Below are positions 6,358 through 17,334 of a stretch of DNA of 64,000 bases, piece by piece (positions within the stretch are counted from its first letter, which is position 1; each line of letters starts with the position of its first letter). A model generated the notes under the pieces. That model had not been told where the DNA came from. It searched no databases and saw only the letters and a program-made list of their open reading frames with translations. The position numbers were made by a program, and so were the translations under genes. The stretch lies in the NCBI RefSeq assembly GCF_037892605.1, contig NZ_JBBKTU010000001.1, forward strand, positions 3,720,001-3,784,000, read 5' to 3'. This DNA is from Lacibacter sp. H407 (GTDB taxonomy: Bacteria; Bacteroidota; Bacteroidia; Chitinophagales; Chitinophagaceae).

Positions 6358-9189
6358 ATGAATTATATTGAGCCCTGTCGCCAATCCTGTTCTTCACCTA
6401 TGTCGTTACATAGTTTATTAAATGAATCAGAAACCCGGTATAATATAATCGACCCCCTTATTGAAAAGGCTGGGTGGAACCTTGCCGACCGACGTTCTGT
6501 AGGTTTCGAAATTCCTGTAGATGGCTATGATGCTGCTCCCATAAATGGTATTACTGATTATTGTTTATTTCGTGATAATGGCGAAGTGCTGGCAGTAATA
6601 GAAGCAAAACGTACCAAACGTGATGCAAGGGTAGGGAAAGAACAGTTATTACAATACATTACAAAAATTGAAGCCAAGCAGTCTTTTCGTCCGTATGGTT
6701 TTTTATGTAATGGCGATGATATCTGGTTTTGGGACTCTGTACATTACCCTGATCGTCCTGTAGCAGGATTTTTCCATAAAGAAGACCTCGAACGTTTATT
6801 ATTTCTGCAGCAAAACCGTCAGGAGCTTTCCAGTATAAAAATCAAGGACACAATTGTTAATCGTTCGTATCAAATAGAAGCCATACGACGTATAGGCGAA
6901 CACATCGAATTACGTAAGAAACGCAAGGCATTATTAGTAATGGCTACGGGTACTGGAAAAACACGTACTGTAATGGCTTTGATTGATGTGTTTCTGAAGG
7001 CCCGTCATGCACAGAAAGTATTATTTCTTGCAGATCGTGATAGTCTGGTTGATCAGGCACTCACAAAAGGCTTTAAAGAACATATACCTGCTGAAAGCAG
7101 GGAACGTATACGAACCTATTTATTAGACGATCCGAAAGAAGCTACTAAAATACGTGGCGCAAGAGTACTAGTATCCACTTTACAAACACTTGAATTATGT
7201 TATGAGCAGTTTTCACCTGCTGCATTTGATTTAATAATAACAGATGAGTGTCACAGGTCGATTTATAATAAATTCAGTGATATACTCGCTTATTTCGATG
7301 CAGTACAAATAGGCCTTACTGCAACACCTGCCCATTTCATTGATCGCAATACATTTAAATTCTTTGAAACAGATGGTGCAGCGCCTACGTTTTTATATAA
7401 ATACGACGATGCTGTAAAAGAAGGGTACCTGGCCGATTATAATGTATATGCAGCACAAACACGATTTCAGCGAAATGGTATAAAGGGTCTTGATTTATCG
7501 GAAGAAGATCAGCAGACGTTACGTGAACGAGGCATCGATCCTGAAAACATCGATTATGAAGGGACCGACCTTGAAAAGAAAGTAACGAATAAGGATACAC
7601 TGAAACGGCAATGGGCCGAATATATGGACATGTGCTATAAGGATGCAGGAGGGCAATTACCTGCAAAAACCATTGTATTTGCCATTACCCATAAACATGC
7701 ATTGAGGCTTGAAGAAGCCTTTAATGAAATGTATCCTGAACATAAGGGTCTGCTGGCACGTGTCATCACTTCTCAAACAGAACGTAATAAAGACTTATTA
7801 AAGCAATTTGAAACAGAATCAGTACCACGTATTGCTATATCGGTAGACATGCTTGATACAGGTATTGATGTACCGGAAGTAATGAATCTTGCTTTTATGA
7901 AACCGATAGGCAGCCAGATAAAGTTCTGGCAAATGATAGGCCGGGGTACTCGTAGTGATGAAGCATGTAAAAACAAACAATGGATACCCGGTTATAAGAA
8001 AGAGAATTTTCTGATTATTGATTACTGGCAAAACTTCGAGCATTTCAATATGATGCCGAAAGATGAACAGGAGGGTGCACAACAAATACCTATACTGGTA
8101 ACCATCTTTAATACACGATTATCGAAACTGGAATTAGTAATCGGTAATCAGCAAAGTGTAGATGCAAAACGTGTAATTGCTGATTTACGTGCTGATATTG
8201 CCAAACTGCCATTAGATTCTTTTACAGTAAAACAGCAACTCAAAGACATACGGGATGTATTTGAAGAAGAGTGGTGGCAATACCTGAATATTCCGAAAAT
8301 CGAATTTCTGCGTATGAAGGTGGGGCCATTATTACGTTTTGCAAGTGCAGGTAATTTGGCAGAGGCTTTCTTTATTTCCAAGATGGAACGCATCAGTTAT
8401 TCATTACTTCAACAGAAAGACGTGGAAGCTGCTGCAGCCAACATAAAGGCGGAAGTAGATCTGTTACCACGTAACCTGCCACAAATAGCACCACATGCCG
8501 GTTTAATTAACGATATGCTTGGTGTTACATGGTGGGAACATATAACGACTGCACAAATTGACGAAGCCCGTAAAACCTTAGCTCCTTTAATGAAATACAA
8601 ACGGGAGCAACCACCCATGGTTATTGAACTGGGGCTGGATGATGTAATTGAAAGCCGTAAATGGGTGATTGTAAACAAGGGCGGACAAAAGCTGATGGTG
8701 GAAGAGTACAAGAAGAAAATTGAAGAACGCATCCAGCAACTGTCGGCAGAACACCCTACCATCCAAAAACTGTTACGCAACGAAGCCGTTACCATTAACG
8801 ATTTACTGGAACTTGAACATACACTTGAAACCGAACTACGGAGTGATGAACTGACGTTGACCGAAGACAATATGCTGAAAGCATTTGGTGTGCGGGTAGG
8901 TGCCTTAACCGATTTTCTCAAATACATATTGAAGCTGGAGCATTTGCCGGAGTTTGCCGATGTAGTACGTAAAGCTTTTGATGCCTTTATACTGGAACAC
9001 CGGTACAATGCAGACCAAACCCGTTTCCTGCGTACCGTGCAAACCGTGTATGTACAGAAGCGCCGTATTGAAGTAGGCGATTTGTATGAAGCACCGTTTA
9101 CCAATTTTGGATTAAATGCGGTGGAGAAACTATTTAGTGAGGATGAAGTGGAAGAGATATTGGAACTAACGAAAAGATTAATTGCATAA
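6358..9189 (+). CDS. hsdR: type I restriction enzyme, R (motor/nuclease) subunit
   Basis: A 943-residue HsdR of the EcoEI/EcoR124-like group. The N-terminal nuclease domain has a PD-(D/E)xK site, with Asp67 in ITDY and EAK at 82-84. The SF2 translocase follows, with Walker A MATGTGKT at 195-202, DECH at 296-299, TATP at 321-324 and a helicase C-terminal motif set (SVDMLDTGIDVPEVMN; IGRGTRSD). The remaining third is the EcoEI-type C-terminal domain that contacts the methylase core. It cuts unmodified DNA after ATP-driven translocation. ATG 6358 is the first start; ATG 6400 (MSLHSLL) is a credible alternative, since homologous proteins begin near ESETRYN. It is the first gene of the defence operon, nine bp before the TIR-like gene. 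Confidence 0.95.
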   Translation: MNYIEPCRQSCSSPMSLHSLLNESETRYNIIDPLIEKAGWNLADRRSVGFEIPVDGYDAAPINGITDYCLFRDNGEVLAVIEAKRTKRDARVGKEQLLQYITKIEAKQSFRPYGFLCNGDDIWFWDSVHYPDRPVAGFFHKEDLERLLFLQQNRQELSSIKIKDTIVNRSYQIEAIRRIGEHIELRKKRKALLVMATGTGKTRTVMALIDVFLKARHAQKVLFLADRDSLVDQALTKGFKEHIPAESRERIRTYLLDDPKEATKIRGARVLVSTLQTLELCYEQFSPAAFDLIITDECHRSIYNKFSDILAYFDAVQIGLTATPAHFIDRNTFKFFETDGAAPTFLYKYDDAVKEGYLADYNVYAAQTRFQRNGIKGLDLSEEDQQTLRERGIDPENIDYEGTDLEKKVTNKDTLKRQWAEYMDMCYKDAGGQLPAKTIVFAITHKHALRLEEAFNEMYPEHKGLLARVITSQTERNKDLLKQFETESVPRIAISVDMLDTGIDVPEVMNLAFMKPIGSQIKFWQMIGRGTRSDEACKNKQWIPGYKKENFLIIDYWQNFEHFNMMPKDEQEGAQQIPILVTIFNTRLSKLELVIGNQQSVDAKRVIADLRADIAKLPLDSFTVKQQLKDIRDVFEEEWWQYLNIPKIEFLRMKVGPLLRFASAGNLAEAFFISKMERISYSLLQQKDVEAAAANIKAEVDLLPRNLPQIAPHAGLINDMLGVTWWEHITTAQIDEARKTLAPLMKYKREQPPMVIELGLDDVIESRKWVIVNKGGQKLMVEEYKKKIEERIQQLSAEHPTIQKLLRNEAVTINDLLELEHTLETELRSDELTLTEDNMLKAFGVRVGALTDFLKYILKLEHLPEFADVVRKAFDAFILEHRYNADQTRFLRTVQTVYVQKRRIEVGDLYEAPFTNFGLNAVEKLFSEDEVEEILELTKRLIA

Positions 9190-9198
9190 ATATATTTT

Positions 9199-12100
9199 AT
9201 GGCGTTCAAAATTTTTTATTCTTGGCAAAGTAAAACCCAAGTAAAGTATAATAAGTATTTTATCGAAGAGTGTCTCAAGGAAGCTATTAAACAATTAAAA
9301 AGGGAAATGAAGGACGATAGTCCAGACTTTTATATTGATCGTGATACAAAAGATGTGCCTGGGCTTCCGAATATTCCTACTACAATTGAAGAGAAGCTGC
9401 TTTTTTGTGACATTTTTGTAGGAGATATTTCGTACGTCGCATACATTGATACAGATGAGGAAAATGCAAAAAGAACTTTAAAAGAGAAGCTCTTGGGTAA
9501 AAACAAATGGGTCCAAGAGGGGGTTTATTCAACAAATGTTGCGGAGGAACTAGGAATTGCAAAGGGAGCTGTAAAAGGGTCAGAGCGAGTAGTAACAATA
9601 ATGAATACATTTTATGGATCACCTAACCAATTAAATTTCGATATAAAACAAAGTAGATTCCCAATTGAGTATGAGTATAGTGACTCTACTTCGAACGAAC
9701 AACGTCTTCTCGAACGAAAAAAATTAGTAACAGGTTTAAAAGAACGTATTAAGTTGATTCTTCAAACAGAACTCGAACGTCAAAAACCTCAGTTCGAACC
9801 TTTCTATAATTGGATAATATGGGAAAAGGTATTGAAACGTGATTTTCCTTTTGAAATTACCGACTATATAAAAGATGTTTTTTCGCAAATAAGAACCTTA
9901 AACATCGCCAAAACTGTTTATAGAATTTGTGGGCTGTCTGGAATAGGTAAGACTAGGTTGCTATTTGAATGCTTTAAACATAATGGCGAAAATATTCCTG
10001 AAGAAATAACTAATAAAATTTTATATGTTGACTTAAAAGAAGATGATGATAAAAATATATTAAAGGCCGTCAAAAAATTGGTTCAAAATAACGAGAATAG
10101 GATATTAATTATTGATAATTGTCCAAAGCAATTACATTCAGATCTTGTTCCAATAATTACAAACGTAAATAGCAAATTAAGTCTAATTACAGTTAGTATT
10201 AACCCAGATGAAAGAGTTGAAGAAGTTGATACTGACGGTATAACCAAAATGCTAATTATCGATAATCAGCAATGTAAAGAAACTGTTACAAAAATTCTAG
10301 CAAATAATTTCTCAGAGCTTGATGATGCCGAAAAAGATTTATTGGTTGATTTTTCAAGTGGCATTTCTTTTTTTGCGACATTAATGGCTAATAATCCGAA
10401 TAGAGGAAAATCTCAGCCTGGCTCTTTAGGCAGGCGAGACATGGTTGAAAGAATTCTTGGAGAACTCATATTAGATAACGACAGTAAAGCAGTGATTTAT
10501 ACATGTTGTCTTTTCTCAAAAATTGGATTTAATGATGAGTTATCTTATCAAGCTGATAATCTAGCCGAATTTGAGGATTTATGTGCCTTTAAAGTTCAAG
10601 CAACTGATCCGGCAGAATCGTCAGAGCTAAAACGAAACAAATTTAGAGAGATTTGTAAAATCCTTATTGAGAAGCAGCTGCTAGAACGAAAAGGCAGGAC
10701 TTATGCTTTTCGGCCATCACCTTTAGCTATTCGAATGGCAGAAGAATGGTGGAAACAATGTACCCTCACCAAGTTTCAAAGAATTATCGGGTTTTTAAAA
10801 GCTAATAATCTCGTTGAAAGCTTTTGTGAGCAATTTCAATACTTAAGACATGTAGAAAATGCTCAAATTATAGTAAAAGATTTGTGCGATGGGGTTTTCA
10901 GTTCAGCGGAAGTTTTAAATAGTAATGTGGGTTCACGCCTCTTCCGCTCATTCGTATATGTGAACCCAACTGCTTGTTCAAAAGCTTTGGTTAAAGCTTT
11001 TTTAAACCTTTCAAAATTACAAATCGAGGAGCTTCGAGAAGGCCGACGAAATTTAGTATGGGCACTTGAAAAGCTTTGTTTTAGAGAAGAAACATTTGAT
11101 GAAGCTGTTAAAGTAATGGCTGCTTTCTCGGTGGGGGAGAACGAAAATATTGGTAACAATGCAACAAATCAGTTCCTTCAACTATTTCACATTTTTCTTC
11201 CTGGCACCACCACAAACCTAGAAAGACGTTGGAGGATTGTGGAATATTGTTTGGCTAAAGATGAAAATTATGTCATGCTGGGAATTCGAATTCTAAACAG
11301 CAGCTTGGCTGTCGGTAACTTCCAAAGAATGGGCGGAGCGGAAGATCAAGGAGATCCTATACCATTGGTCGACTATAATCCAAGTGGAACAGAAATTTTC
11401 GAGTACTGGAAAAAGGCAATTGATAAACTAAGCGAATTTGCATTCAATAAGGGTCAATATTCAGAAAAGGCAATTGACATTTTATTGGAAAATTTTTACG
11501 GACTTAGTTCTCAAGGAGCTGGTCAAATAATAGTACCTGTAATAGAAAGGATCATAAATGAAGATCTTATCGATAAAATGGAAGCACGTAAAAAAGTCCA
11601 ATTTGTTTTGAATTCTAAAAGGATATTCGATACTTCCATTCTTGCCGAGTTACAGCGAATTTTTGAATCGTTAACTCCAATATCATTCTTCGAAAAATTT
11701 AGTATTTATGTACAAAGTCCATCTTCAGATGAATATTTCCCGGAGGATAGTGAAGGTGGGCATGAATCTCTCCTTAAAAAAATTGATAACGTAGCAAATG
11801 ATTTCTATAAAGAGAAAGAATACTGGAATGAACTTTCAGACAATTTGGTAGCTGGGAATATTTATGAGGGATTTAATTTTGGCAAGGCACTATCAAAAAT
11901 TATTTCCTCAGACTCTGAAAAATTAGATCTTCTAAAACTATTGATATCTAAACTACTTGACATACCAAAGGAATCGAGAAATATTTCTGTAATTATAGGG
12001 TTACTGTCAGGAGTTGATGACAAGCAAATACATGTTGAAATATTTAACGAATTTCTTTCAAGTACACAGATAAGAGATCTCTCTTTTGCAATTGCAAGAA

Positions 12101-13089
12101 GTATTGAACTTCCTTTTGAAGAAATTAATAAGCTTTTAATACAAACAAAAGAGGGAATTTTCCCAACATCACAATTTTCAAGCTTCGAATATGGTTGGGG
12201 AATTAAGCATTTGGATTTTCCCAAAGTAGTTTTAATAATTGACACATTAAGGTCAATCGATAACATGGGAAAGGCAGTCTCATTTTTCACTCTTATGAAA
12301 TGGTCTCATGCCAATCCTGATATATGGGATATCTACAAATTAAAAATAAGGGAGTTAGTACTAGAAGATAGTAAAGATATTTTTGAAACGATGCAGGGCA
12401 CGATGGATTACTACTATTGGTCAGATCCTATCATTAAACTATTAGATGAAATTGACGATTCTGAATTTGCAGATTTTATTCTGACATTAATAATTGACCA
12501 ATGCAAAGACTTTGAAGGATTCTATAGTAAAGAGAATAGTTTTTATAGAGTACTCGAAAAGATTCAAGAAAAGTATTTTGATTCATTTTGGCAGCATGTT
12601 TCAGATTTATACAATAATGTTAGCGAGTTTGGACTAGCCGCTTTCCATTTCAAATCCTTATTAGGATCAAGACAAGATGCCTATGCTAACTCGGAAGGCT
12701 TGCTTTTCAAAGGTGATAAGCAAAAATTTGAAATCGTCTTTGAATGGTGTAAAGGAAAAAATCTATCAGTAGTGTCAAGAATTGCTGAATTGTTACCAAT
12801 ATACCTTGCTAACGGCGATGGAAGTTTTGATTGGCATCCTTATGCAAGAAAATTTATTGATCAATTTGGTGAAAGCAAAGAGGTACTTGGATACATAAGT
12901 GCTAAAATTGGTACTTACTCTTGGATTGGAAGTATAGTTCCCAAACTTGAAAGAGACCTTATGTTATTCAAAAGACTTGTTGATCATCCTTTGGAAAACG
13001 TTCGAATCTGGGCTGATCTTCATGTACAAGATCTTGAAAAGAAAATTAAAGCTGAAAGCGATCGTGATGCAGACGAAATTTGGATATAG
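9199..13089 (+). CDS. TIR/deoxyribosyltransferase-like domain fused to STAND-type NTPase (candidate anti-phage effector)
   Basis: A 1296-residue protein. Residues 1-~140 form a TIR-like / nucleoside-deoxyribosyltransferase-like domain: IFYSWQS at 5-11, DRDT at 47-50, VPGLPNI at 53-59, CDIFVGDIS at 70-78, and NVAEELGIA at 113-121 with a candidate catalytic Glu. A P-loop NTPase follows, with Walker A GLSGIGKT at 245-252 and Walker B RILIIDNC at 301-308, then a winged-helix-like stretch near 460-530 (KNGRTYAF-like RKGRTYAFRPSPLA). The last ~750 residues are mostly helical, without a repeat I can name, and could be the sensor. This N-effector, central NTPase, C-sensor order is that of STAND/NLR-like bacterial immune proteins. 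The gene sits 9 bp after hsdR and before hsdM, is more AT-rich than hsdM, and looks inserted into the operon. Function is inferred; NAD+ or nucleotide cleavage on phage sensing is the leading idea. Confidence 0.85.
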   Translation: MAFKIFYSWQSKTQVKYNKYFIEECLKEAIKQLKREMKDDSPDFYIDRDTKDVPGLPNIPTTIEEKLLFCDIFVGDISYVAYIDTDEENAKRTLKEKLLGKNKWVQEGVYSTNVAEELGIAKGAVKGSERVVTIMNTFYGSPNQLNFDIKQSRFPIEYEYSDSTSNEQRLLERKKLVTGLKERIKLILQTELERQKPQFEPFYNWIIWEKVLKRDFPFEITDYIKDVFSQIRTLNIAKTVYRICGLSGIGKTRLLFECFKHNGENIPEEITNKILYVDLKEDDDKNILKAVKKLVQNNENRILIIDNCPKQLHSDLVPIITNVNSKLSLITVSINPDERVEEVDTDGITKMLIIDNQQCKETVTKILANNFSELDDAEKDLLVDFSSGISFFATLMANNPNRGKSQPGSLGRRDMVERILGELILDNDSKAVIYTCCLFSKIGFNDELSYQADNLAEFEDLCAFKVQATDPAESSELKRNKFREICKILIEKQLLERKGRTYAFRPSPLAIRMAEEWWKQCTLTKFQRIIGFLKANNLVESFCEQFQYLRHVENAQIIVKDLCDGVFSSAEVLNSNVGSRLFRSFVYVNPTACSKALVKAFLNLSKLQIEELREGRRNLVWALEKLCFREETFDEAVKVMAAFSVGENENIGNNATNQFLQLFHIFLPGTTTNLERRWRIVEYCLAKDENYVMLGIRILNSSLAVGNFQRMGGAEDQGDPIPLVDYNPSGTEIFEYWKKAIDKLSEFAFNKGQYSEKAIDILLENFYGLSSQGAGQIIVPVIERIINEDLIDKMEARKKVQFVLNSKRIFDTSILAELQRIFESLTPISFFEKFSIYVQSPSSDEYFPEDSEGGHESLLKKIDNVANDFYKEKEYWNELSDNLVAGNIYEGFNFGKALSKIISSDSEKLDLLKLLISKLLDIPKESRNISVIIGLLSGVDDKQIHVEIFNEFLSSTQIRDLSFAIARSIELPFEEINKLLIQTKEGIFPTSQFSSFEYGWGIKHLDFPKVVLIIDTLRSIDNMGKAVSFFTLMKWSHANPDIWDIYKLKIRELVLEDSKDIFETMQGTMDYYYWSDPIIKLLDEIDDSEFADFILTLIIDQCKDFEGFYSKENSFYRVLEKIQEKYFDSFWQHVSDLYNNVSEFGLAAFHFKSLLGSRQDAYANSEGLLFKGDKQKFEIVFEWCKGKNLSVVSRIAELLPIYLANGDGSFDWHPYARKFIDQFGESKEVLGYISAKIGTYSWIGSIVPKLERDLMLFKRLVDHPLENVRIWADLHVQDLEKKIKAESDRDADEIWI

Positions 13090-13182
13090 TTTGCTAAAGG
13101 AATTTTCTGCTGCACAAGTGTGCGACGCAACAAACGCCCATAAGAATTACATTTGCTCGCTACCAAAATCAACCAACAGTCC

Positions 13183-14772
13183 ATGCTCACCGATAACAAA
13201 CTCAAATCACAAATAGATGCCCTCTGGAATCGTTTCTGGAGCGGGGGGATCACCAATCCGTTAACAGCCATTGAGCAAATGAGCTATCTCATTTTTCTAA
13301 AGCGGCTCGAAGACCTGGAGAATGCACGCTCACGTAAAGCAGCACGCAAAAAAGAAGACTATACCAGTGTATACGAACGCTACATGCAGTGGCGGCGTAA
13401 AGAAGAAGGCGTTGGCAACCTGCCCACCGAATTAAAAAACGATAAGCAAGGCGACAAACTCAAATGGAGTTACTGGAGCCAGCTGCCCGGCGAAGAAATG
13501 CTGGGCTTTGTTCGGGATCATGTATTTCATTTTCTGCGCAACATGGGCAACGATGGCAGCAGCTTTACCCAATACATGAAAGATGCCGTATGTATTATAC
13601 CCAAAGCATCGCTGTTGCAGGAAGCGGTAAAAATTATTGAAGACCTTCACATCAGCGAACAGAATGCCGATGTACAGGGCGATATGTATGAGTACCTGCT
13701 CAACCAGCTCAGCAGCAGTGGTAAAAACGGACAGTTCCGCACACCACGCCACATCATCCGTATGATTACACGTATGGTTGATCCAAAAATCGGTCAACGC
13801 ATTTGCGATCCTGCAGCAGGTAGTGCCGGTTTCCTGGTAAGTGCATACGAACATATACTGGAACAAAACACCAGCAAGGATATTCTTACCTACGATGAGG
13901 AAGACAAAGCACATAATCTTATTGGCGATCAGATAACCGATGCCAAAGCACACAAGTTTTTAAAAAGTAAAGCCATTACCGGTTTTGATAACGATAGTAC
14001 CATGGTGCGTATTGGTGCCATGAACCTGATGCTGCACGGTATTGATGATCCGCATTTTATTTACAGCGATGCACTCAGCAAAAGTTTTGAAGAACGGAAT
14101 TTGTACGATGTAGTGCTGGCCAATCCACCGTTTAAAGGAAGCATTGATGAAAGCGATATCAATGCACGTTTTAAAACCAAGACCAAGAAAACGGAGTTGC
14201 TGTTTATGGAACTCATTTACGATTTGCTGGTGATGGGTGGCCGTGCCGGTGTAATTGTGCCCGATGGTGTATTGTTTGGAACCAGCAATGCACATGTAGC
14301 GGTGCGTCAGTTGTTGGTTGATCATTGCCAGTTGCAGGGCATTGTAAGTATGCCCAGCGGTGTGTTTAAACCCTATGCCGGAGTAAGCACTGCCATCTTG
14401 CTGTTTACCAAAGGCGGTGTTACCAATAAGGTTTGGTTTTACGATATGCAGGCCGATGGTTTTAGTCTTGATGATAAACGACAGAAGATTGCTGCTGATG
14501 ATACCAAAGAAATTATTGCAGAGTATCACAAATGGCAAAGCAAACCTGCTGCCTACAAACCAACCAGTAAGAAAGTGATATTGGTTGATGTGGAAGATAT
14601 TAAAAAGAACAAATACGATCTCAGCATCAGCCGTTACAAACCGGTGGAGTACACGGCTGTGCAGTACGAACAACCCGATGTAATATTAGACAAGCTGATG
14701 ATGATGGAAGAAGAGATCGGGTATATTGTTAAGTCGTTGAAAAACAGCGTAAATCAAAAAAATATTAGGTGA
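13183..14772 (+). CDS. hsdM: type I restriction-modification N6-adenine methyltransferase subunit
   Basis: A 529-residue HsdM. The helical N-terminal domain (about 1-150, with FWSGGITNPLTAIEQMSYLI) is typical of the family. The catalytic domain begins at QFRTPRHIIRMI near 184-195, has SAM-binding motif I DPAAGSAGF at 209-217 and catalytic motif IV NPPF at 314-317, which marks an N6-adenine methylase. With HsdS it forms the sequence-specific methylase and with HsdR the restriction complex. ATG 13183 was chosen over an in-frame TTG 30 bp upstream because the family starts near this Met. It follows the TIR-like gene by 93 bp and is more GC-rich than that neighbour. Confidence 0.95.
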   Translation: MLTDNKLKSQIDALWNRFWSGGITNPLTAIEQMSYLIFLKRLEDLENARSRKAARKKEDYTSVYERYMQWRRKEEGVGNLPTELKNDKQGDKLKWSYWSQLPGEEMLGFVRDHVFHFLRNMGNDGSSFTQYMKDAVCIIPKASLLQEAVKIIEDLHISEQNADVQGDMYEYLLNQLSSSGKNGQFRTPRHIIRMITRMVDPKIGQRICDPAAGSAGFLVSAYEHILEQNTSKDILTYDEEDKAHNLIGDQITDAKAHKFLKSKAITGFDNDSTMVRIGAMNLMLHGIDDPHFIYSDALSKSFEERNLYDVVLANPPFKGSIDESDINARFKTKTKKTELLFMELIYDLLVMGGRAGVIVPDGVLFGTSNAHVAVRQLLVDHCQLQGIVSMPSGVFKPYAGVSTAILLFTKGGVTNKVWFYDMQADGFSLDDKRQKIAADDTKEIIAEYHKWQSKPAAYKPTSKKVILVDVEDIKKNKYDLSISRYKPVEYTAVQYEQPDVILDKLMMMEEEIGYIVKSLKNSVNQKNIR

Positions 14773-14837: not shown

Positions 14838-15254
14838 GTGCCAAGACTAGCCTATATATTACAATCATCTGAAAACCAGAAACGTCATGTTTGCATTGAT
14901 GCCACTAATGAATCAACCATACTCCAATTCTTACAAGAAGACCCTGCACGGCTTAAAAAATTCCAGCAGATTGTTACAATTATCCTCGAAAACATTCGTA
15001 ATACAGAGCTTTACGATAAAGAAGAAATAGATCGTGCTACAAAGGGAGTTACGGCGATGAAACTTTTTAAAGGGGGACAAAACATCCGTCTTTATTGTAA
15101 AGAACAGTCGAACGAATCAGGAACCTTTTACGTAATTGTTGCAGAATTATTGCGAAAGAAGAAAGATCAGAAAGTAAAAGGGAAAACAAAAACATTAATT
15201 CAAAAAGTTGCCGGTTATGAATACCAAATTAAAGAGCGACCAACCAATGGCTAA
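14838..15254 (+). CDS. HigB/RelE-like toxin of a toxin-antitoxin-chaperone module
   Basis: A 138-residue basic protein. The central part has the fold signature of RelE/HigB (Gp49-like) toxins: ATKGVTAMKLFKGGQNIRLY followed by a beta-strand pair ending FYVIVAELLRKK and a Lys-rich tail. These toxins are ribosome-dependent or free mRNA endonucleases. The start codon is GTG; no ATG fits before the conserved region. The 3' end overlaps the antitoxin gene, as is common for the toxin-first HigBA order. The family call is from pattern only, so a different toxin of the same fold is possible. Confidence 0.75.
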   Translation: MPRLAYILQSSENQKRHVCIDATNESTILQFLQEDPARLKKFQQIVTIILENIRNTELYDKEEIDRATKGVTAMKLFKGGQNIRLYCKEQSNESGTFYVIVAELLRKKKDQKVKGKTKTLIQKVAGYEYQIKERPTNG

Positions 15255-15711
15255 TGCATGGAAGGATTTGTTTTCTTTTAAATCGGAGAAAGAAAAATAT
15301 GAACATGATGCTCAAATTCTCATGTTTAAATTTTTAAGTGAAGTTGAACAATACCAAGAGGCACAGGGTATAAACCGTAAAAGCCTAGCGCAGAAAATTA
15401 AAACTTCGGCAAGCTATCTTACTCAATTGTGGCGGGGAAATAAGCCCCTCAACTTTGTAACTCTTGTTAAAATGCAGGATGCTTTAAAATTAAAATTTAT
15501 AATAAAAGCTGTTCCTGTAAATGAAGAGGTGCGTATAGAGGATGAAGAATTCTTTCGTGATCGAATTAAAAAATATCATTCAGAAAAAGGCTATTGGACT
15601 TTTTGTAACCCAGCAATACATGTTGATCGGGATATTTATAAAGATAAATTTGACTTTGATATAGCAAAAGCACAAAATATTAACTATGAAAGTGAAGCCA
15701 TCCCCGCTTGA
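15247..15711 (+). CDS. HTH antitoxin with C-terminal extension (HigA-like, TAC type)
   Basis: From ATG 15247 the protein has 154 residues. A helix-turn-helix of the Xre/HigA type is seen in GINRKSLAQKIKTSASYLTQ and the following NFVTLVKMQDAL. After it comes a tail of about 70 residues containing KKYHSEKGYWTFCNPAIH, longer than in simple HigA antitoxins. In TAC systems such a tail acts as a chaperone-addiction segment. ATG 15247 overlaps the toxin stop by 8 bp (ATGGCTAA); ATG 15217 in the same frame is the alternative start. The protein overlaps the SecB-like gene by 26 bp. The role of the tail is inferred from the neighbours. Confidence 0.75.
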   Translation: MANAWKDLFSFKSEKEKYEHDAQILMFKFLSEVEQYQEAQGINRKSLAQKIKTSASYLTQLWRGNKPLNFVTLVKMQDALKLKFIIKAVPVNEEVRIEDEEFFRDRIKKYHSEKGYWTFCNPAIHVDRDIYKDKFDFDIAKAQNINYESEAIPA

Positions 15712-16123
15712 GTTGGTTGATTTCTTTGTTGTAAATTATCAATTTGAATTTGTTCATCCAAAAGAAGACGTCGAAATAAGGACTGTATTTGATGCCTATC
15801 CTGTGGAGATAGATTTTGGTATGCGTTTGCTGGAAGATGGTTTGCACCAGGTTGCAATGAAAACAGTAATTAACCGAAATGAAGAACAAATGGCTGGTTA
15901 TGCAATTTCATGCGAGGCTGTTGGTATTTTTAAAATTCAGAATGTTGAAAGTGAAGAAGAAAAGCAAAATCTTCTGGTTCGTTCGGCTTTGGCCATGCTT
16001 CTGAATTTTGTACGCACATATATCTCAACCGTTACTTCACATTATCCAATGGGTAAATATTGGTTGCCAAGTATTGACGTTGTAGATTTAATTAAACAAC
16101 GTAATGAACAAGCAAAGAAGTAA
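15686..16123 (+). CDS. SecB-like chaperone of the toxin-antitoxin-chaperone module
   Basis: A 145-residue acidic-to-neutral protein without signal peptide. The C-terminal third resembles SecB: RSALAMLLNFVRTYISTVTS, then a YPMGKYWLPSIDVVDLI segment, matching the SecB pattern of a long helix followed by a proline-containing final segment. The N-terminal part is strand-rich as in SecB. In TAC systems (for example Rv1957 with HigB1-HigA1 of Mycobacterium tuberculosis) a solitary SecB-like protein protects the aggregation-prone antitoxin. Its overlap with the antitoxin gene and absence of other Sec genes here support this role. Identity is from pattern and context, not a full alignment. Confidence 0.72.
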   Translation: MKVKPSPLELVDFFVVNYQFEFVHPKEDVEIRTVFDAYPVEIDFGMRLLEDGLHQVAMKTVINRNEEQMAGYAISCEAVGIFKIQNVESEEEKQNLLVRSALAMLLNFVRTYISTVTSHYPMGKYWLPSIDVVDLIKQRNEQAKK

Positions 16124-16140: not shown

Positions 16141-17334
16141 ATGTTTAGACAAAAAAAGAAGTATCGTGTATCGGAATTGTTTGATGTTGTATCCGGATCA
16201 ACACCTTCAACTTCCAAAGCGGAATACTGGAGCTCTGATGATTTGGGAATTAAGTGGATCACTCCAAAAGATTTAAGTCGATTAGGAACTGCGTACATCA
16301 ACAAAACAGAACGGAAAATTTCTGTGAAAGGATTGCAAAGTTGTTCTGCTCATAAAATTCCTGCTCAAAGTATAATCATCTCAAGCCGAGCACCTATTGG
16401 ATATGTTGCAATATTGAATGATGAAATGGCTTGTAACCAAGGATGCAAGGCTTTAATTCCCAAAAATGCAAAAGAAATTGATCCGCTTTATTTTTATTAT
16501 CTACTGTTAACAAGCGAAAAAGAGTTGAATAATTTAGGTAGTGGTTCAACATTTAAAGAATTGTCTAAAACGAAGCTTGAGGAATTTGTAATAGCAGTTC
16601 ATGATATTAAAGATCAGAAGGACATAAGCCAAATATTAGAACAAGCCGACAAAGCCCGTCAGCAACGCAAAGAAGCCAATGCACTTACCGATCAATTTTT
16701 GCAAAGCAGTTTTCTTTCGCTCTTTGGTGATCCGGTGAAGAATGAGAAGGGGTGGGGAGTGAAAAGATTAGATGACGTTTGCGATTTTGAGAATGGTGAC
16801 AGGTCTTCAAATTACCCCAGTGGAAACGAAGTGGTAAGAAGTGGAGTTCTCTTTATTAATTCTGCGAATATAAATGACTTCAGATTTGTTCCCGAGAATC
16901 CAAATTTTATTACGGAAGAAAAGTATGCTTCCTTGAGAAGCGGTAGGTGCCAAAGGGGGGATATAATTTTTACACTACGAGGAAACGGCCTTGGCAAGTG
17001 TTGTGTTTTTGATGGGATTTATGATGAAGGATTTATAAATGCTCAATTAGTGATTTTAAAATCGTTTAGAAATATTAATAGCTATTTTTTGATTGGACAA
17101 TTAAAAGAGCCTAGAATGTTCGAGCAAATTTGGAAACTAGGATCTGGTTCTGCGCAACCACAACTATCAGCATCACAATTAAAAAGTTTAAACATAATAG
17201 TTCCACCTCTTTCCCTTCAGCAACAATTTGCCGCTATTGTAGCGCAGGCAGAAACCTTGCGTAAAAAGCAGCAGGAAAATGAACAGGAGTTGGAGCAGTT
17301 GTTTCAGGCATTATTGCAGAAGTATTTCGGGTAG
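16141..17334 (+). CDS. hsdS: type I restriction-modification specificity subunit
   Basis: A 397-residue HsdS with two target recognition domains and two conserved helical spacers. TRD1 covers about residues 8-150 (YRVSELFDVVSGSTPST..., with KWITPKDLS). The central helix follows (QILEQADKARQQRKEANAL, ending FLSLFGDP near 191-198). TRD2 starts at WGVKRLDDVCDFENGDRSS and ends near 355. The closing helix is AAIVAQAETLRKKQQENEQ. HsdS fixes the bipartite target sequence, which cannot be read from sequence alone. It starts 17 bp after the SecB-like gene, so the TAC genes are cotranscribed with or at least embedded in the hsd operon. Confidence 0.93.
   Translation: MFRQKKKYRVSELFDVVSGSTPSTSKAEYWSSDDLGIKWITPKDLSRLGTAYINKTERKISVKGLQSCSAHKIPAQSIIISSRAPIGYVAILNDEMACNQGCKALIPKNAKEIDPLYFYYLLLTSEKELNNLGSGSTFKELSKTKLEEFVIAVHDIKDQKDISQILEQADKARQQRKEANALTDQFLQSSFLSLFGDPVKNEKGWGVKRLDDVCDFENGDRSSNYPSGNEVVRSGVLFINSANINDFRFVPENPNFITEEKYASLRSGRCQRGDIIFTLRGNGLGKCCVFDGIYDEGFINAQLVILKSFRNINSYFLIGQLKEPRMFEQIWKLGSGSAQPQLSASQLKSLNIIVPPLSLQQQFAAIVAQAETLRKKQQENEQELEQLFQALLQKYFG

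Follow-up and report, generated by a model that had tools for sequence, protein, structure and literature searches.

The window analyzed here (64,000 nucleotides of Lacibacter sp. H407, contig NZ_JBBKTU010000001.1, positions 3,720,001 to 3,784,000) contains a type I restriction-modification (RM) operon with an NLR-like gene between hsdR and hsdM. The gene is an open reading frame (ORF) of 1296 aa at 9199-13089 on the + strand, with an ATG start and no internal stop. Its product is a TIR-effector variant of the PD-Lambda-4_A chassis, nested in an RM operon. In all likelihood the protein functions in the manner of an NLR-type receptor. The reading we favor, and consider probable, is of an NLR-like anti-phage receptor that joins this chassis to a TIR-family N-glycosidase effector and forms a nested second-line module in the RM operon.

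Domain architecture

The PADLOC profile PD-Lambda-4_A matches residues 225-1292 (1.4e-48; profile positions 220-1277 of 1283), which excludes chance. The same profile matches 29/29 core sequences, and the P-loop Gly/Lys and the Walker-B Asp (Asp306 in the window) are invariant in all of them. The GxP motif is typical of the STAND/NLR class; at this site the Pro is retained in 26/29, with Gly-Ile-Ser in the window copy and L040 and Gly-Asn-Leu in L114. Structure prediction places a winged helix after the NTPase and models the C-terminal region as a helical solenoid. A Foldseek search with the core put spliceosome, Apaf-1 and karyopherin-like chains at the top, with low TM-scores. A STAND/NLR-like NTPase with a solenoid is thus supported, one line of support being weak. 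This agrees with the earlier note, which had proposed a STAND/NLR-like NTPase from the sequence; invariant P-loop and Walker-B residues and the predicted NTPase-solenoid architecture are in line with the proposal. The long C-terminal region that the note had left without a named domain belongs to PD-Lambda-4_A and models as the solenoid.

The N-terminal domain has a predicted TIR/flavodoxin-like fold, and Foldseek ranks TIR-STING first for it. Glu117 (NVAEELG) is invariant in 26/26 aligned TIR-type sequences and, from its motif, would be the catalytic Glu. By sequence, the window copy matches no TIR family model in Pfam, and a search of the host genome with PF13676 gave no match. Among the TIR-type sequences, PF10137 matches 13/26 (best 4.9e-6; the window copy is not one of them) and PADLOC TIR effector models match 9/26. 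The structure model and the residue conservation support a TIR/deoxyribosyltransferase-type fold with a conserved Glu, as the earlier note had read it. The motifs listed there (FYSWQS, DRDT, CDIFVGDIS, NVAEELG, GLSGIGKT and RILIIDNC) are all present; Glu117 of NVAEELG and Lys251 of GLSGIGKT carry the numbers given in the note, and the Walker-B Asp of RILIIDNC is residue 306.

A second protein with a FYSWQS domain and a different C-terminus is encoded in the same genome (L003:1492-2643; C1 near 1.209 Mb). Matches to the domain also occur in L002, L005-L008 and L015-L018, where the open frames are 312-408 aa long.

Exchange of effectors on a shared core

Relatives were sought with a core-alignment query in the genome contigs of one genome per species (84,980 species). 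The scan gave 399 pattern matches, 221 of them relatives, and the 80 best relatives were used; an earlier scan of the same contigs with the single window protein as query found no relative. The nearest three among the best 80 of 221 (L040, L041 and L042) are 41-44% identical. A FastTree phylogeny of the core was built from 87 rows including the window, with the near copies L114, L115 and L117 kept. Duplicates (L001, L032, L014, L013, L021, L020, L053, L046, L065, L078 and L091) and short or truncated sequences (L035, L038, L039, L055, L073, L079, L093, L106 and L111) were left out. L138-L146 were added after the tree was built; among them, L140 is RM-nested and L146 has no Hsd-like hit, and both stand outside the tree.

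A regular expression served to class the N-termini, and 12 of the tree rows were labeled by eye: 47 rows have a putative PD-(D/E)XK domain (PDX), 27 a TIR domain, 12 an alpha/beta-hydrolase (HYD) and 1 a trypsin-like domain. These labels need at least 7 changes on the core tree, versus a mean of 34.6 for shuffled labels and a least possible 3. The starred branches force at least 5 changes for PDX, 2 for TIR and 3 for HYD; several long branches meet in the tree, so all change counts are minima on one tree. The PD-Lambda-4_A chassis is inherited, and its effector is exchanged now and then. Avs-type receptors exchange effectors too.

The PDX class has D52, G54, D56, Q79 and K81 invariant in 22/22 (an Asp/Gly/Asp...Gln-x-Lys pattern). 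Its PD-(D/E)XK label stays putative because it comes from this residue pattern and neither Pfam nor a PDB sequence profile confirmed it. The HYD class carries GHSxGG (Pfam PGAP1 at 1.8e-7 in L095), and the trypsin-like N-terminus is a weak match (0.0075). The large protein of PD-Lambda-4 thus appears to belong to an NLR-like family that swaps its killing domain among TIR, putative nuclease, hydrolase and trypsin-like types, and the family allows tests of how bacterial NLR-like proteins sense phages.

Some relatives have further genes beside them. The trypsin-like receptor gene adjoins a metallo-beta-lactamase (MBL)-fold gene by Pfam (L021:8383-13441), and ORFs of 1584 aa and 364 aa beside a TIR-type receptor look by eye like a protease/MBL pair (L040:13564-19424), an arrangement reminiscent of Avs1. 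Similar pairs of a helix-turn-helix (HTH) and a nucleotidyltransferase-like gene, by eye possibly toxin-antitoxin, lie downstream of receptors at L140:13201-14435 and L111:6858-8058.

The RM operon

The genes from hsdR through hsdS are all on the + strand, and Pfam bears out the HsdR, HsdM and HsdS identities:

6358..9189, +, hsdR, type I restriction subunit of 943 aa (Pfam ResIII, EcoEI_R_C and HSDR_N; PADLOC REase_I, 6.1e-142)
9199..9789, +, TIR-family N-terminal domain of the NLR-like protein (residues 1-197; Glu117 invariant)
9790..13089, +, STAND-type NTPase (Lys251, Asp306), with a winged helix and a helical solenoid by prediction; the core shares homology with PD-Lambda-4_A
13183..14772, +, hsdM (Pfam); the ORF is listed from a TTG at 13153, the ATG at 13183 being the likelier start
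14838..15254, +, ORF of 138 aa at the toxin position in a toxin-antitoxin-chaperone (TAC)-like module, assigned by gene order only
15208..15711, +, HTH protein in the antitoxin position (Pfam HTH_3 at 0.0022, below the cut-off; PHROGs transcriptional regulator, 2.6e-5)
15686..16123, +, SecB-like chaperone of TAC type (Pfam SecB, 3e-9; PADLOC PD-T4-9_C, 6.4e-10)
16141..17334, +, hsdS specificity subunit (Pfam Methylase_S, 7.4e-41)

The ORF list and Pfam also upheld the earlier note on the length of the NLR-like ORF, its place between hsdR and hsdM and its distance of 9 bp from hsdR; 93 bp separate it from hsdM if the latter starts at the ATG at 13183. The gene is likely co-transcribed with hsdR. 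Operon status rests on spacing because scans for promoter-like sites (40 versus 39.1 in shuffles) and terminator-like sites (9 versus 8.1) showed no excess, nor did a Bacteroidota-type promoter pattern match anywhere near the operon.

Between hsdM and hsdS, three overlapping genes (14838-16123) stand in toxin-antitoxin-chaperone order. Family searches with the 138-aa ORF, Pfam, PADLOC and PHROGs among them, gave no convincing match. With the NLR-like gene and this trio, two modules appear to be nested in the RM operon.

RM genes around the relatives

RM genes in the flanks of the relatives were found by phmmer with a few Hsd sequences. Flanks are often short, reaching at least 5 kb on both sides in 56/87 rows, so the RM counts are lower bounds. 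At least one Hsd-like hit lies in the flank in 17/87 tree rows and none in 70/87; among the 56 rows with long flanks, 45 have none. No RM genes show up around the majority of the relatives, and on this ground the favored reading holds that the receptor does not need RM in general.

Seven of the 87 tree rows are nested among type I RM genes, with same-strand Hsd genes of at least two kinds (the window, L022, L026/L141, L057, L072, L075 and L076). The count rises to 9/87 with two weaker cases that have HsdR-like sequence only (L028/L142, a 667-aa ORF at 100 bits, and L096, in two pieces), and L140 outside the tree is a further example. The nine rows comprise 5/27 TIR, 4/47 PDX, 0/12 HYD and 0/1 trypsin-like. 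Single, weak or distant Hsd hits (L027, L040, L071, L074, L100 and L105) were not counted as nested, nor was L047, where a complete RM set lies 191 bp off on the opposite strand. Likewise not counted is L048:13483-14172, an HsdM-like piece of 229 aa that lies downstream of a TIR-type receptor gene at a distance of 288 bp and is perhaps what is left of an RM operon. The putative-nuclease receptors among RM genes are L076, L141 and possibly L096 and L142. Besides the window, TIR-type receptors occur in these orders:

L022: hsdS, 3 bp, STAND, 2 bp, hsdR
L140: hsdM, 622-aa ORF, hsdM, hsdS, STAND, two ORFs, hsdR
L057: hsdS, STAND, hsdR
L075: hsdS, STAND, AbiE-like pair, hsdR
L072: hsdS, STAND, Schlafen/AlbA, hsdR

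The interpretation in the earlier note holds in part. The placement among type I RM genes to which it pointed does recur elsewhere, but the exact hsdR-X-hsdM order was not found in the other loci examined. Members of the receptor family have moved into restriction operons on several occasions.

On the tree, RM linkage turns up in scattered places. With the nine-row label, the one that the shuffle control covers, 8 changes are needed against a shuffle mean of 8.8, and 45/200 shuffles are as low; the strict seven-row label needs 6 and a six-row label 5. Effector type was also compared with RM linkage by independent pairs, a test with 2 pairs and no power. Among the nearest relatives, neither L041 nor L042 has an Hsd-like hit, and the sole hit for L040 is a 479-aa HsdR-like ORF 4.9 kb upstream. 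Both the lack of clustering and the position of these relatives outside RM operons argue against a general triggering role of RM.

How the operon was assembled

Within the taxonomic family, an hsdR search matched 124/294 genomes, counting the one that holds the window, and the regions of four close hsdR relatives were compared at the junction. In L134 and L135, 1 bp separates hsdR from hsdM and the junction carries no cargo; L136 has a PDDEXK_3 protein and a Bro-N protein there (L136:6756-8036) and L137 a KilA-N protein (L137:9064-9888). The hsdR/hsdM junction is therefore a cargo slot.

In two pairs of related operons, the receptor gene follows hsdS and precedes hsdR: L022/L140 (hsdR 81% identical, STAND 52%) and L057/L075 (hsdR 84%, STAND 66%). 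In neither pair does the STAND protein reach the conservation of HsdR and HsdM. The STAND genes of L057 (L057:2147-7164) and L075 (L075:8029-13102) are 33-46% identical over the first nine 60-column blocks (about 540 columns) and 63-100% after; in their hsdS genes, three opening blocks at 97-100% identity are followed by four at 22-69%. The pattern suggests a replacement tract that would extend from inside hsdS to the receptor's front half and leave the sensor half in place. STAND identity in L022/L140 reaches 80% in the NTPase and is 26-55% in later blocks. The better-kept half thus differs between the pairs, the drop lying towards the C-terminal half in L022/L140 and in the front in L057/L075.

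These data bear on whether the location has meaning. The gene could be an accidental neighbor, a horizontally acquired defense gene that landed in the operon without shared expression or selection for linkage. Its GC content (33.9%, versus 40.3% for hsdR and 44.3% for hsdM), the two empty and two otherwise filled junctions and the scattered RM linkage all fit. Repeated RM nesting and retention in two operon pairs argue the other way, as does the L057/L075 layout, which survives despite the apparent replacement of hsdS and the STAND front half. We regard an accidental location as possible but doubtful. It concerns location only and is compatible with the receptor reading.

Proposed mechanism and alternatives

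On the receptor reading, the protein would be a latent nucleotide-bound monomer at rest. Binding of a phage product by the solenoid would lead to nucleotide exchange and oligomerization, the TIR domains brought together would hydrolyze NAD+ or a related nucleotide, and its loss would arrest the infected cell. What the data themselves establish is the anatomy and evolution: homology, predicted folds, conserved active-site residues, effector exchange and recurrent RM nesting. The phage ligand, oligomerization, substrate and arrest are proposed by analogy with the families, a shared transcript is proposed from gene spacing, and the location in the type I RM operon would make the gene a second line behind restriction.

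The effector of the same receptor might be not an NADase but a nucleotide N-glycosidase resembling DNPH1/MilB, which would deplete (deoxy)nucleotides. This is unlikely, given that the relevant family hits, to PF10137 and PADLOC TIR effectors, are TIR and that Foldseek puts TIR-STING first. It too overlaps with the receptor reading and is compatible with it; because of such overlap, our confidences in the several readings do not sum to one.

A third possibility is a PrrC-like guard, silenced by or watching the Hsd complex and firing on a phage anti-restriction protein or DNA mimic. It is compatible with the receptor anatomy and differs in the trigger. The distance to hsdR, the nested rows together with L140, the hsdS-gene-hsdR arrangement kept in both operon pairs, and the PrrC precedent and coupling hypothesis (PMC2610378; PMC3506569) are in its favor. 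RM failure as the trigger, as the earlier note had suggested, is possible by analogy with PrrC/EcoprrI. Against a guard stand the unclustered RM linkage, the nearest relatives outside RM operons and the 45/56 long-flanked rows without an Hsd-like hit. Where RM genes are present, the operons are of different kinds with different slots (hsdR/hsdM, hsdS/hsdR, hsdS/cargo/hsdR and after hsdR), the STAND protein is less conserved than HsdR and HsdM, and other cargo fills the hsdR/hsdM slot in L136 and L137. We find a guard improbable. The same low odds attach to a broader version, with PD-Lambda-4_A as a general NLR-like scaffold with exchangeable effectors, whose RM-nested copies would guard the restriction machinery, anti-restriction proteins triggering TIR arrest. 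If true, bacteria would possess a guard receptor that keeps watch over another of their immune systems.

Comparison with known systems

PD-Lambda-4 (the PADLOC name) was reportedly described by Vassallo et al. in 2022. The name PD-lambda-4 does not occur in the accessible part of PMC9519451, and a review that mentions it lists it under 'P-loop NTPase' (PMC10952713). Our literature search found no title on this effector exchange or on this gene inside RM; most subscription papers were outside its reach, and the absence is unproven.

The window core is colinear with PD-Lambda-4_A. It differs in having the TIR type where profile-like relatives (L023) have a putative PD-(D/E)XK domain, and in being nested in an RM operon. 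Profile positions 1-219 have no match in the window protein, the single stretch starting at 220, and PD-Lambda-4_B (PDLC03992) has no match in the whole host genome at E 0.001; as a control, the model matched 1/14 genomes, E. coli. Without the B partner and the A N-terminal region, we do not class the locus as a PD-Lambda-4 system. PADLOC holds Avs models, and the Avs sensor is TPR-like; only PD-Lambda-4_A models match the window protein in PADLOC at E 0.1 or better.

PrrC pairs an ABC-type NTPase with an anticodon nuclease; it is encoded in the EcoprrI hsd operon, and Hsd physically holds it (PMC2610378). The window gene also lies inside a type I hsd operon, and the likeness is that of a growth-stopping NTPase-containing protein at a type I RM locus (PMC2610378; PMC3506569), the growth-stopping role of the window protein being predicted. 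In Pfam and PADLOC it matched no anticodon nuclease or ABC-type NTPase family; it is TIR-type and STAND-like instead. The published immunity-suicide coupling hypothesis (PMC3506569) becomes directly testable with a single cloned operon through the recurrent type I RM nesting.

With CAP12/Pycsar TIR effectors, SfSTING and SPARTA TIR domains, the window protein shares the predicted fold and the conserved Glu. Its TIR domain differs from theirs in being fused to an NLR-like chassis, not to a STING, APAZ or cyclic-nucleotide sensor.
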